Origin: Lasiosphaeria ovina
Lineage: Eukaryota > Ascomycota > Sordariomycetes > Sordariales > Lasiosphaeriaceae
Direction: 5' to 3'
DNA: 64,000 nucleotides
Assembly: GCA_033439765.1 (NCBI GenBank)
Contig: JAULSN010000005.1
Span: 3,735,001 to 3,799,000 of the forward strand
Position numbers and translations under genes: made by a program. Each line of letters starts with the position of its first letter. The stretch's first letter is position 1. Of this stretch, positions 52,948 to 60,525 are shown one piece after another. The notes beneath the pieces were generated by a model. It was not told the DNA's origin and did not search any database. It saw nothing but the letters and a program-made list of their open reading frames with translations.

Positions 52948-54864
52948 TCAAACCACCAGCCCAGCCAATTCGCGCACAACATTTCTCTCCACCATCTCCT
53001 GGAACTCTGCATCACCACCACCATCCTGGCCCTCTTGACTGCCAAGCCTATCATCATCCGCCTTGTCGCTCTCGTGCAGCTCGCGCGGCATGCCGTCGGC
53101 GTCGTCGAAACAGCCCGAGATGCACCGTGCCACGACGCGCGTGTACTTGTCGCCCACGACGGAGCAGAAGCGCGACATGTCGGCGAATAGGGCACGGCGC
53201 AGCGCGTGCCGAGTGCATTGGTCCCACTGCTGCTTACCCTCATCGGTGGTGGTGGAGGGATATGGAAAGTAGTGCTGGGCAATGTCCTCGAGCGGCTGCC
53301 AGAGCGCGATCTCGGCGAGCAGCAGCCCGAGGCTGTACAGGTCAAACACTTTCAGGTAGCGCTGTTGTGTCGTGAAGGCGTACTCGGGGTGCGCGTACAG
53401 CAGCTGCCGCTCGACGTGGCTGGGAAGCGCGCCGCTGCCGGTGTAGTCGTCCGACGAAGAGTCTCTGCCGTGCAGCCGCGCGTACCCAAAGCCGGCAATG
53501 TACGGCCGCTGCAGGTCGTAATGTTCGTGGTAAGGATGCCCCCCGTCTGTCCCGGTTCCCGTCCCCGGGCCCGGGAAGCGGAAGAAGAGAATGTTGCGCG
53601 ACCCGAACGCCTTGTGCAGCGCGCCGCACGCCTGGAGCAGCGTCAGCGCCCGCGCCAGCGCCCGCGCCAGGGCGAAGCGCTCGCCTAGGCTTGGCGCGAG
53701 TATGGGAAGTAACATCCCTCCGCTGCTGTTGCTGTCATGGTCTAGCCTCGTCGACATGAGATGGTGCAGGGAGACCGGGGGCGTGGACACGTCTGCGCCA
53801 GCCGGGAACTTGAAGATGAAGGAGAAGCAGCGGCCGAGGTGGTCGGGGAAGTAGCCGGCACAGTCGAGAATGCGCATGCTGTCGGGCCTCGGCGCCCGCG
53901 AGAGGAGCCGCGAGATGTCCTCGACGCGTTTCTCCACAAACGCCTCGTCATTGGCAACGTCGTCATACGTCTTGTCCTCGAGGATGACGTCTTCGGCAGC
54001 GCCGCCCTTAGTTACGACAAACTTGGCGAGCCACCACCCGCGCCGTCCAGGCGGCGGCGTGGTGTTGGCGTGGTGGTCCAGCGGCCGGCGCTCGACGAGG
54101 GCCCTGGGGCTCTTCCGCAGCTCCGATCGCTTGTCGGGCTTGTCCAGCGACTGCCGCGCAATGGCGAGCACCTCGAGCTTGAAGGCCGCGCACCGGCTGA
54201 GGTCAGGCTCCGTGTCGGCCGCGGCCTCGAAGATGCGCTTCAGGTTCACGTCGTCCAGCACGCGCGGCAGCACGTGCGACGGCAGCGACGAGAAGTCGGC
54301 CGCGCCGAACTCGCGCGTCACCAGCCCGAGGTCGTCGTTGAACCCTCGGAGGTCGGTCAGCAGCTCGCGTGCGCGCTGCTGGTCTGCCGAAGCCCATGTC
54401 ACGGCCTTGAGCGACGACTGCGTCCTCTGCAGCAAGCTCGACCTCCGCCGTCTGGGTCTGGAGCTGGGTTTGTCTGGCGATTTGTCGTGGTCGACTGGTG
54501 ACGAGTGGATGTCCCAGAACTTGTCTGGGAGGGCAAAGCTGACGCTGTTGACGGACCCGCCCTCGCTCAGCTCGTATCTGTCGATGATGCCGCCCAGATC
54601 GACCAGAGTCACTTTGACCCCCTCCAGAATCCCCTGCAGCACCTTTTGCGCTACCGGGTGTAGATTGAGCGACGACACGGATCCTCGCAGCAAACCGGCC
54701 TTGCCCAGCCATATATGGAACTTGACCTGCTCGACGGCCAGCTTGACAACAATGAGAGAGCCTTCGGTGTTTAGGCGACGGGCGTTGACGACTAATTGGT
54801 ACACATTGGCGCACGAGCTGATGAGGCCGGGAAGGCCTACTACGAAGCCTGCGGCGTCCGTCAT
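52948..54864 (-). CDS. HeLo-domain pseudokinase (MLKL-like architecture)
   Basis: A single exon of 638 residues. The N-terminus MTDAAGFVVGLPGLISSCAN then VYQLVVNARRL is the hydrophobic first helix typical of the HeLo domain (Prion-inhibition and propagation family), extending to about residue 215. HeLo bundles act at membranes in fungal cell death (HET-S) and are related to the four-helix bundle of MLKL. Residues about 290-610 have a protein-kinase fold pattern (LLQACGALHKAFGSRNILFF; LYSLGLLLAEIALWQPL). The HRD-equivalent reads HKAFGSRN (417-424) without the catalytic Asp, and the DFG-equivalent reads GFG (458-460), so it should be catalytically dead. It is transcribed away from the kinase-ankyrin gene across 450 bp. 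Confidence 0.87.
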   Translation of the reverse strand: MTDAAGFVVGLPGLISSCANVYQLVVNARRLNTEGSLIVVKLAVEQVKFHIWLGKAGLLRGSVSSLNLHPVAQKVLQGILEGVKVTLVDLGGIIDRYELSEGGSVNSVSFALPDKFWDIHSSPVDHDKSPDKPSSRPRRRRSSLLQRTQSSLKAVTWASADQQRARELLTDLRGFNDDLGLVTREFGAADFSSLPSHVLPRVLDDVNLKRIFEAAADTEPDLSRCAAFKLEVLAIARQSLDKPDKRSELRKSPRALVERRPLDHHANTTPPPGRRGWWLAKFVVTKGGAAEDVILEDKTYDDVANDEAFVEKRVEDISRLLSRAPRPDSMRILDCAGYFPDHLGRCFSFIFKFPAGADVSTPPVSLHHLMSTRLDHDSNSSGGMLLPILAPSLGERFALARALARALTLLQACGALHKAFGSRNILFFRFPGPGTGTGTDGGHPYHEHYDLQRPYIAGFGYARLHGRDSSSDDYTGSGALPSHVERQLLYAHPEYAFTTQQRYLKVFDLYSLGLLLAEIALWQPLEDIAQHYFPYPSTTTDEGKQQWDQCTRHALRRALFADMSRFCSVVGDKYTRVVARCISGCFDDADGMPRELHESDKADDDRLGSQEGQDGGGDAEFQEMVERNVVRELAGLVV

Positions 54865-55314
54865 TGTATCTTATTAATGTTCCACGGGGTTTTCTAGAAC
54901 GACGAAGAGAAGTTGGTGTGTGCAGAAATAAAAGATCTGGAGCCTCCCATACCAGAAGAGAAGAGGTTGCTGTTTTCGCTCTGGAACACAGCCACTGACG
55001 GGGCCCTTGACGTGGAGTTAACCATCAAGCACCTAGCAGGGCGCGGTGTGTTACACACTGCATGCATGTACACAGCCCCTGGATTTGGGCGAATGGCTGT
55101 GATAGCCTGGCGGAAGAGGGTGTGCTGTGGCGGGGTTAGTTGATGCTGATGGCTGCCTTTTTCTTGCGAACCAAAAAACTGAGAGCCTCGTCTATTGATG
55201 AATTCGGTGTCTGTATTTGGACTTCGTCATAAAAAAAAAAGAGCATCAGGTTGAGATCCACAGCGATTCAGCTATTTGCAGCAGACGGCGGACGGACGGA
55301 ACCCACGCTCACAA
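54865..55314. promoter_or_regulatory. Bidirectional intergenic region of the HeLo-pseudokinase / kinase-ankyrin pair
   Basis: 450 bp between the two start codons. Contains a ten-A run near 55230. If the pair is a functional unit, its joint expression would be set here. No factor site is claimed. Confidence 0.45.
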
Positions 55315-58300: not shown

Positions 58301-60525
58301 CTACCTGGACCCATCATTCGCAGCCAAGGATCTGATGACATTCCTGACGTCTGTCACCTTCAACGACAGCATCCTATCCCAGCACTGCTGCGAGCACGCG
58401 CCCCTCGACGACGTCGCCGAGGCCCTCAAAATGGTTGCCAAAATTGGGCTGGAGACTCGTGTGGCTGCGTACGGGTCGGCGACAGGGCGCTACATCCTAG
58501 GCATGTTCTTAGCGCTGCGCAAACGCAAAGACCTGTCTTGCTCGGACGAAGATGCCGAGGAATTGCCCTCGTTACTGCCACAGGGGGCCAGTTCCAGAAG
58601 AAGGGGCAAGGGAAAAGAGCCAGCACACGATGACGACAGTGAGTCCCCTTCTTCATCTTGTTACAAACCCACACTGCAGGACCTCGTCCAACACACTCTT
58701 CTGCACACCATCTTCTCCAACAACCTCGACATCCTCGACGCCCTCGTACAGTCGGACCTCGTCGCCCCGCTCGGCTCGTCCCCGGTAACCGAGAACCTAC
58801 TGTACTGCGCAGCACGTTGCGGCAGCGACTCGGCGTTCCGCGCCCTACTAAACCTCATCCCCCGCTTCGACCACCCGCACAGCGCGGCCACTGTCCTGCG
58901 GCTGCTCCTCGGCAGCAGCACCACGACCAACATGGTGAAAATGCTCCTCGCCCATCTTGACGAGCACGGCGACGCAGCCGCCGCCGTCAACTTCCGCACA
59001 TCCGCATCATGTCCACCAAACTGCGCGGCTGACCACGACCACGTGCACAACTCGTCGGCGCTGTGGAACGCGGTGCGCGCCGAGAACTTTGCCGGCGCCG
59101 CGCTGGTCGCCCCGTACGTGATTTATGATGATGGTGATGATGGCGACGTCAGCCCCACGACGCTGTACTATGTGCTGTCGTCGACGCCCAGGGGGAATAT
59201 GCTGCGCCAGGTGCAGTTCCTGCTCGCGCTGGGCGGCGCGCATGCTGCGTTTCTGTGTCATCCGGCGGCTGGGGAGAATGCGCTACATGTGGCGGTTGAT
59301 AGGCATGGTAGGTTTTGTTTTCGTTGTGACAAAGCCCATTTTCTTTGTTTTCCTGTCCTTTTTGGGGTTCTTAAAGACCCCGGCTTGCTTTGCTTTGGCT
59401 CATTGATGCTTGCAATATACCATGACCTGTGCAACGTGCTGACTTGCATATTTCTCATTAACAGACGAATACAACACCCCGTCCGAGTTCCGCCACGTCT
59501 TCGAGGCGCTGCTTGACGAGTTCGGCAGCGACCACGACATCAACGTGCCAGACAGTACCGGCATGACCGCGCTACACCGCGCCGTGCGCGCCTGCTGCCC
59601 TGACGCCGTGGAACTGCTCCTCGACTGGGGCGCCGACAAGTATTCCGGCCGTTCCAGCAACAACAACAACAACAACAACAACAACAACAACAACAACAAC
59701 AACAACAACAACAACAACAACAACAACAACAACAACAACAACAACAACAACAACAACAACAACAACAACAACAACAGCAGTAGTATGCCCTACGACCTCG
59801 CAGTTGCGCAGTTCATGATCCGGTATCGGGCCATTGCTAAACATCAGACTCAGGCTTCCATTGCCGTCCACGGACTTGACGAAAAGGACGAAAATGGCTG
59901 CAACGAAGAGGAGGAAGATGCTGATGGCGAGGCGGGAGAGGAACCTCCGAGGCCCCACTACCCGTTCTCCATCTCAACGCCCCGGCCGAAAGCGCCCCTG
60001 GAAACGGATGCCCACGAGATCCGCATGCTGGAGATGGCTCCCTGCATCCGCCTGCTCGCGCTGCTGTCAGAAACGAGCTCTTCTGGCAAAGAGCCTGAAC
60101 CGCCGCTAATCGCACCCGAGGACGCGACCGCGCCTGAGGGAGTCATGACCGGCCTCGTGCCCTGCAGCGGCCGGTACGAGGCGCTGCCGGCATGGGATGC
60201 TACTCCTGGCGGTGATGGAGAGGACGAAGTAGGACGAGTGGAAGGACAAGAATTACCGGGCGGGAGCCACGCCGACGAAACGCATGTGCACCAACAAAAA
60301 CACAAGGCCAAACCCGAACTGAGCGCCTGGGTGAGCTGTCGAATGGGCGACCACGTATACCGGCTCAACCTCAGCGAGGTCGAAGGGGGCAGGAACAGTC
60401 CCCCTCTCTGGAGATGGCTGAGGGCGAGAGAAGGCGGCCGCTTTGCCGTGCTGGGCGACAAGTACTGTGCTAGGATCGAGCTTGTGGCCGTTGTCGGCGA
60501 CGATGAAGCGGGGAGATTGTGGTGA
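55315..60525 (+). CDS. Protein kinase - ankyrin-repeat fusion (RIPK4-like layout)
   Basis: Four exons (55315-57153, 57257-58205, 58291-59307, 59465-60525) give 1621 residues. An alternative acceptor at 58249 keeps the frame and adds 14 residues. The ATG at 55315 is used; the frame upstream starts only at TTG. The kinase domain (about 170-600) keeps the ATP Lys (K210 in VVVFKRP), the catalytic loop HGDIKCAN (H331-N338), DFG (368-370) and MAPE (404-407), so it should be active. A Sel1-like stretch (FQVSICYLHGLGVEYSLSEA then AKYLCLSAQHGS) follows, then ankyrin-type repeats (NANHETCLYICCRAGEADKV; DDHGLRPVDHAIVARRSDVV; DSTGMTALHRAVRACCPDAV). A run of 39 Asn (1334-1372) interrupts the last ankyrin region. 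The substrate is unknown; its divergent neighbour is a candidate. Confidence 0.92.
59659..59775 (+). repeat. (AAC)39 triplet tract encoding poly-asparagine
   Basis: Thirty-nine uninterrupted AAC codons in the last exon of the kinase-ankyrin gene. Pure codon runs are prone to length change. Poly-Asn runs of this size are common in prion-like proteins. Confidence 0.97.

Follow-up and report, generated by a model that had tools for sequence, protein, structure and literature searches.

Two genes that lie head to head in the ascomycete Lasiosphaeria ovina encode a HeLo-pseudokinase and a repeat-bearing kinase, and members of the two families lie side by side at many further loci of the same genome. 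The pair was found in a 64,000-nucleotide stretch (assembly GCA_033439765.1, contig JAULSN010000005.1, here called C28, positions 3735001-3799000), to which we refer as the window; the whole genome comprises 51.7 Mb in 32 contigs. The two families have kept this linkage, for the most part in head-to-head orientation, while their members diverged deeply, and the two genes very likely constitute one co-functioning module. We consider it somewhat probable that the repeat-bearing kinase activates the HeLo-pseudokinase and that this leads to cell death.

The divergent gene pair

The positions of both genes and of their main features are given in Table 1. The HeLo assignment, for which the initial annotation had named a PF14479 profile search as a check, held in Pfam, where the match of 67 bits exceeds the cut-off of 23.2. 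The predicted structure of this protein had a predicted TM score (pTM) of 0.80. When the model of the HeLo part was compared with known structures using Foldseek, the HET-s domain was its first match and HET-s/HET-S chains occupied ranks 1-4, in accordance with a HET-s-like helical fold. The MLKL bundle was not among the listed fold matches of this model, which is an absence from the list and not evidence.

The kinase-like C-terminus of the same protein stayed under both Pfam cut-offs that apply to it (DUF7580, 21.1 with a cut-off of 27; Pkinase, 10.9 with a cut-off of 31.7). The motif HKAFGSRN stands where HRDxKxxN is expected and AGFG where DFG is expected, and the loss of the catalytic Asp and of the DFG Asp was rightly read from the sequence at the outset. 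With a helical bundle at its N-terminus and, behind it, a kinase fold without catalytic residues, the protein has the architecture of MLKL. The pseudokinase profile matched MLKL (4m68) with an E value of 1.5e-7, RSK/MSK better with 7e-9, and PERK similarly. One partner of the module is a HET-S-type HeLo domain fused to a kinase fold that lacks the catalytic residues.

The other partner is encoded by four exons (55315-60525, plus strand; 1621 amino acids), with a kinase domain behind an N-terminal region and, farther on, ankyrin repeats preceded by a weak Sel1-like repeat. The earlier description of an intact Lys, HGDIK-N and DFG followed by ankyrin repeats was borne out by motifs and Pfam: exon 2 matched Ank_4 (32.5 bits) and Ank_2 (29.5 bits) and exon 4 matched Ank (24.2 bits), with the Sel1 match (21.6 bits) under its cut-off of 30.7. 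Neither NACHT nor NB-ARC was found among the Pfam matches up to E 1 of the four exon pieces. With the kinase profile, RIPK1 was within the best 60 matches (E 4.6e-24), below SOBIR1, CDK6, LRRK2, ULK2 and others. We describe this partner as a kinase that has the customary catalytic residues and is joined to ankyrin repeats and a weak Sel1-like one.

An orthologue in Lasiosphaeria miniovina (protein match P0025), 84.3% identical from residue 121 through the C-terminus, supports the gene model. Because this orthologue begins at Met121, the start codon of the L. ovina kinase is uncertain and may lie at 55675. The two genes had been placed 450 bp apart; their start codons agree with that figure, and the ATG-to-ATG distance becomes 810 bp with the alternative start. 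An exon-3 start at 58249 was replaced by 58291 after comparison with the orthologue, and alignment A3, which underlies the protein search with the kinase profile, still contains the 14 surplus residues of the former start. Exon 4 carries a perfect (CAA)n array of 39.7 copies (59658-59776, plus strand), read as a poly-Asn tract within the ankyrin region; this tract is missing from the L. miniovina orthologue.

Table 1. Features of the gene pair, numbered from the first nucleotide of the window
Feature	Position	Strand	Basis
HeLo-pseudokinase gene, single exon, 638 amino acids	52948..54864	-	open frame and PF14479
Pseudokinase fold, residues 243-638	52951..54138	-	
DFG position AGFG, residues 457-460, Asp replaced by Gly	53485..53496	-	
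Catalytic-loop position HKAFGSRN, residues 417-424, no HRD Asp, no loop Lys	53593..53616	-	
HeLo domain, residues 8-182	54319..54843	-	PF14479; Foldseek
Shared divergent intergenic stretch, 450 bp	54865..55314	.	
Kinase gene, exon 1, kinase; alternative start 55675	55315..57153	+	Pkinase 45.7 bits; gene model
Candidate beta-3 Lys210, in VVVFKRPRV	55942..55944	+	
Catalytic loop HGDIKCAN, residues 331-338	56305..56328	+	
DFG, residues 368-370	56416..56424	+	
Kinase gene, exon 2, weak Sel1-like repeat and ankyrin repeats	57257..58205	+	Pfam
Kinase gene, exon 3, weak ankyrin	58291..59307	+	Pfam on slightly longer piece; border from L. miniovina P0025
Kinase gene, exon 4, ankyrin repeat, poly-Asn tract, tail	59465..60525	+	

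Recurrence of the pairing across the genome

The initial annotation had proposed to look for conserved adjacency of the two families in fungal genomes, and within the L. ovina genome itself many paralogous pairs came to light. The genome was searched separately with each protein, and each locus count includes the window itself. From the 17 rows obtained with the HeLo-pseudokinase one HeLo-only row (C5:373363) was dropped, which left 16 pseudokinase loci; the kinase search gave 10 rows. Seven of these ten kinase loci had one of the 16 pseudokinase loci in divergent orientation no more than 8 kb away (binomial chance about 5e-19), and after exclusion of the window's own pair 6 of 9 were still paired (chance about 2e-16, assuming uniform placement); the paired loci do not count as independent events, since a pair may be duplicated whole. 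Such a divergent neighbour was found at none of 21 other DUF7580 loci (29 rows, minus 6 at pseudokinase loci, three rows of one C31 gene merged) and at none of 7 other HeLo loci (16 rows, minus 8 at pseudokinase loci, two C29 rows merged). One of these HeLo controls, C7:43581, was later found to adjoin a pseudokinase match, C7:44251. By this genome-wide test the pair is more than a chance arrangement.

When further queries were used, pairing was seen for 12 of 20 loci on the kinase side and 11 of 22 on the pseudokinase side, counts that leave out one scan which also returned generic kinases. Local profile scans added the pair C1:9121775 / C1:9124040 as well as kinases next to C2 and C3, which brings the pseudokinase loci with an adjacent kinase to 14 of 23. 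No repeats were seen in the partner kinases at C1:2003, C2 and C3. The divergent pair at C29:2448 (C29:2447300-2453300, region L056) is split over several short frames and is perhaps decayed or intron-rich. Orientation was mostly divergent, the exceptions being a convergent arrangement with one kinase at C27 and a tandem arrangement with one at C1:8878060. The clusters at C27 (4792600-4803400) and C1:8870900-8880666 each combine one pseudokinase gene with two kinase genes, of which at least one has Sel1-like and TPR (tetratricopeptide) repeats.

Nine pseudokinase loci were scored as unpaired. Four of them were examined with 2-3 kb of extra upstream sequence and four were judged from the genome-wide lists only. 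The ninth, C28:3239423 (region L057, C28:3236600-3240700), is a weak match to the pseudokinase family; the kinase upstream of it on the same strand is of another kind (HRDIKPAN, DFG), and the locus was not counted as paired. At C1:8302019-8304502 (minus strand) an unpaired HeLo-pseudokinase gene has a divergent gene for a patatin-like phospholipase instead (50.8 bits; L045:214-1842, plus strand); patatin is a domain type also described as an effector of fungal NOD-like receptors (NLRs) (PMC4986451).

Among eight pairs, identities were 21-44% between the kinases and 22-41% between the pseudokinases. With identities this low, the linkage has outlasted deep divergence. An enzyme-repeat gene and an executioner-type gene are recurrently linked in two-gene clusters. 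A mirror-tree comparison gave r = 0.48 (665/40320 permutations), a value driven by two close pairs; it fell to 0.18 (1048/5040) or -0.07 (3096/5040) when one or the other close pair was dropped. The comparison therefore tells of nothing more than a single pair having been duplicated recently.

Catalytic residues, domain exchange and relatives in other fungi

At 17 pseudokinase loci the Asp of HxD was absent in 16, the Asp of DFG was likewise absent in 16 (replaced by Gly in 15) and both were absent in 15; the loop Lys was absent at all 17. On the kinase side, HxD Asp, loop Lys and DFG Asp were present in 13 of 13 genes, 11 of them paired and 2 unpaired, and two of the 13 deviate after the DFG Asp (DFE or DFS). 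Five further kinase genes were inspected; four keep HxDxKxxN and the DFG Asp (one as DFE), and the remaining one, C29:2451993, has HGDVRTHN and DFS. The same division was seen in other species: none of 20 readable pseudokinase relatives (20 of 21 were readable, the two weakest protein matches, P0023 and P0024 with E about 3e-4, having been left out) had the HxD Asp, and HxDxKxxN and DFG were kept in all five kinase-ankyrin relatives chosen from 379 matches. An apparent Ser/Thr enrichment of the pseudo-activation loop (15.7% vs 12.1%, higher in 25 of 34) was not used, as the loop borders were wrong in several rows.

The domains attached to the two kinase folds vary among the paralogues. Pfam recognized ankyrin repeats in the kinase partners at C28, C1:1960906, C12:2062990, C32:2424509, C23:1282350 and C23:514940, with the ankyrin match of the C1:9124040 kinase just below cut-off; TPR replaces ankyrin in three others (C12:1609, C27:4802, C1:8873). 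A HeLo match over cut-off was obtained for 7 of 11 scanned members of the pseudokinase family, that of C23:1283974 barely so and over part of the profile; one match was under cut-off and three members had none. In three pseudokinase proteins (C32, C12:1614443 and C27) an N-terminal kinase with HxD and DFG takes the place of HeLo, the loop Lys being changed to Arg in those of C32 and C27. A kinase in cis with the pseudokinase in three proteins links the two activities by fusion.

A search of the protein collection with a single sequence returned only the query, and relatives were found with an alignment profile. The pseudokinase profile gave 24 matches including the query, among them proteins of L. 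miniovina, Echria macrotheca, Fusarium nematophilum and Alternaria alternata. Match P0004 (B0T26DRAFT_728462), a partial model, is the L. miniovina orthologue of the window's protein with 280 of 307 aligned residues identical, and P0002 of the same species corresponds, judged by eye, to the C23:1283974 member. Most of the 379 matches to the kinase profile were generic kinases below the top; near the top stood P0025 of L. miniovina and proteins of Lasiosphaeris hirsuta, Fusarium acuminatum, a Polycauliona metagenome-assembled genome and Xylaria curta. Both P0004 and P0025 (B0T26DRAFT_728465) list a contig of 4,259,901 bases and their model numbers are three apart. From contig size and model numbers, rather than coordinates, the pair is very probably conserved in L. 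miniovina, which extends the recurrence of the adjacency to a second species on that footing.

Proposed mechanism, alternatives and known systems

We propose that the repeat region of the kinase would sense a ligand or another protein. Once freed or oligomerized, the kinase may phosphorylate or otherwise switch the pseudokinase, a direction of action that is itself part of the proposal. The switched pseudokinase would then release the HeLo bundle, which might insert its N-terminal helix into the membrane and kill the cell. According to a review (PMC12881547), the HeLo domain of HET-S is both membrane-targeting and lethal, fungal death genes often cluster with their activators, and ankyrin and TPR are among the repeat types of fungal death sensors.

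The main rival has identical genetics: the kinase could restrain the killer by binding or phosphorylating the HeLo-pseudokinase, and its loss or mismatch would free killing, as in antidote or allorecognition systems. The same genomic evidence speaks for this, and tight divergent linkage also fits an inhibitor and its target. However, repeat-bearing enzymes beside fungal executioners, such as those of protease-gasdermin clusters, are described as activating sensors (PMC12881547), and 9 of 23 pseudokinase loci without a nearby kinase would be unexpected for a tightly linked antidote. We regard restraint as unlikely. Somewhat less likely still is that the kinase acts by binding only, as a scaffold or allosteric partner whose own catalysis is dispensable. 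Pseudokinases often work through contact, and two kinases deviate at the DFG glycine; conservation of the three catalytic residues in every one of the 13 kinases and of the catalytic motifs in all five foreign relatives argues against it.

At about the same low level, or slightly below, we place a role of the pair outside cell death, in development, stress or secretion, with HeLo merely as a membrane anchor or oligomerizer. Several members of the pseudokinase family without a HeLo match are compatible with such a role, and killing is so far our inference, yet HeLo is a described executioner domain (PMC12881547), the window's gene is near NLR-type genes and one unpaired relative adjoins the patatin gene. 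That the HeLo protein instead acts downstream of NLR genes of the window (NACHT-WD40 gene at 36683-41928, NB-ARC fragment at 62788-63624) through amyloid templating, with the neighbouring kinase incidental, is very improbable, given that the kinase linkage recurs at many loci and that the HeLo protein ends in a pseudokinase and not in a prion-forming tail, the crude patterns used (no proper motif test) giving a single GxQxG at residue 608.

By analogy, an activating kinase and a HeLo-pseudokinase would stand alongside the NLR/HeLo and protease/gasdermin pairs of fungi as their kinase-based equivalent, following a RIPK-MLKL-like logic. As in RIPK3-MLKL, a catalytically equipped kinase is joined by a helical-bundle pseudokinase, and MLKL is among the best kinase matches of the pseudokinase profile. 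That profile matches other kinases equally or better, however, and in the fungus the N-terminus is a HeLo domain of the HET-S type, the genes are linked as pairs, the kinase bears ankyrin or TPR and activation is only predicted. In RIPK4 and ANKK1 a kinase is followed by ankyrin repeats, as in the fungal kinase, whereas in the profile search with the fungal kinase other kinases rank above RIPK1, a weak Sel1-like segment separates the kinase from the ankyrin repeats and relatives exchange ankyrin for TPR. For plant MLKL-like proteins we know of no linked kinase gene. A helical bundle with a kinase-like domain is shared with them, a likeness drawn from their description only (PMC12881547).

Closer at hand are the fungal systems. 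A 2025 review mentions proteins in which a HeLo-related HELL domain is fused to a kinase or pseudokinase, though we know from it of no linked repeat-bearing kinase (PMC12881547). The NLR pairs nwd2/het-S and pnt1/hellp likewise link a sensor-like gene to a HeLo or HELL executioner (PMC10197012, PMC7889193); here a kinase replaces the NOD domain, and a pseudokinase, not an amyloid motif, forms the end of the executioner. Of the gasdermin genes of fungi, more than 80% are reported to cluster with protease genes, many of them with WD40, ANK or TPR, so that an enzyme with repeats stands beside a pore-forming protein (PMC12881547); in the present pairs it is a kinase beside a HeLo-pseudokinase. The fungal sensor-executioner gene pair is known, and a kinase in place of the NLR or protease appears to be new. 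In the open-licence literature of PubMed Central (PMC), preprints not covered, we found no published kinase-repeat gene paired with a HeLo-pseudokinase.

More tentatively, with the chances a little short of even, the pairs may represent a third kind of two-gene death module in fungi, one that works without NLRs or amyloids: a kinase-Sel1-repeat sensor (ankyrin or TPR) would phosphorylate a pseudokinase-capped effector, HeLo and the active kinase would be exchangeable heads, and a multi-copy RIPK-MLKL-like switch would have been kept or re-invented in fungi. In accounts from the open-licence PMC literature, necroptosis-like death of fungi is explained via NLRs and amyloids, with no fungal counterpart to the kinase step of the animal pathway. 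The recurrent pairs are a concrete candidate for that step, and many pairs in one genome make cognate and mismatched partners directly comparable. If the activating role of the kinase is true, it suggests a general rule for fungal death modules, namely an enzyme with repeats beside its own executioner, a protease with a gasdermin in one case and a kinase with a HeLo-pseudokinase in the other.

The NLR-type genes of the window were also characterized. The gene at 36683-41928 (plus strand) combines NACHT_N (197.7 bits), NACHT and a WD40 region, the latter consisting of approximately 12 copies of a 126-bp unit with 91% matches, that is, repeats of the highly alike kind. The second NLR-type piece, the NB-ARC fragment at 62788-63624 (plus strand; 32.9 bits), begins 2.3 kb past the pair.

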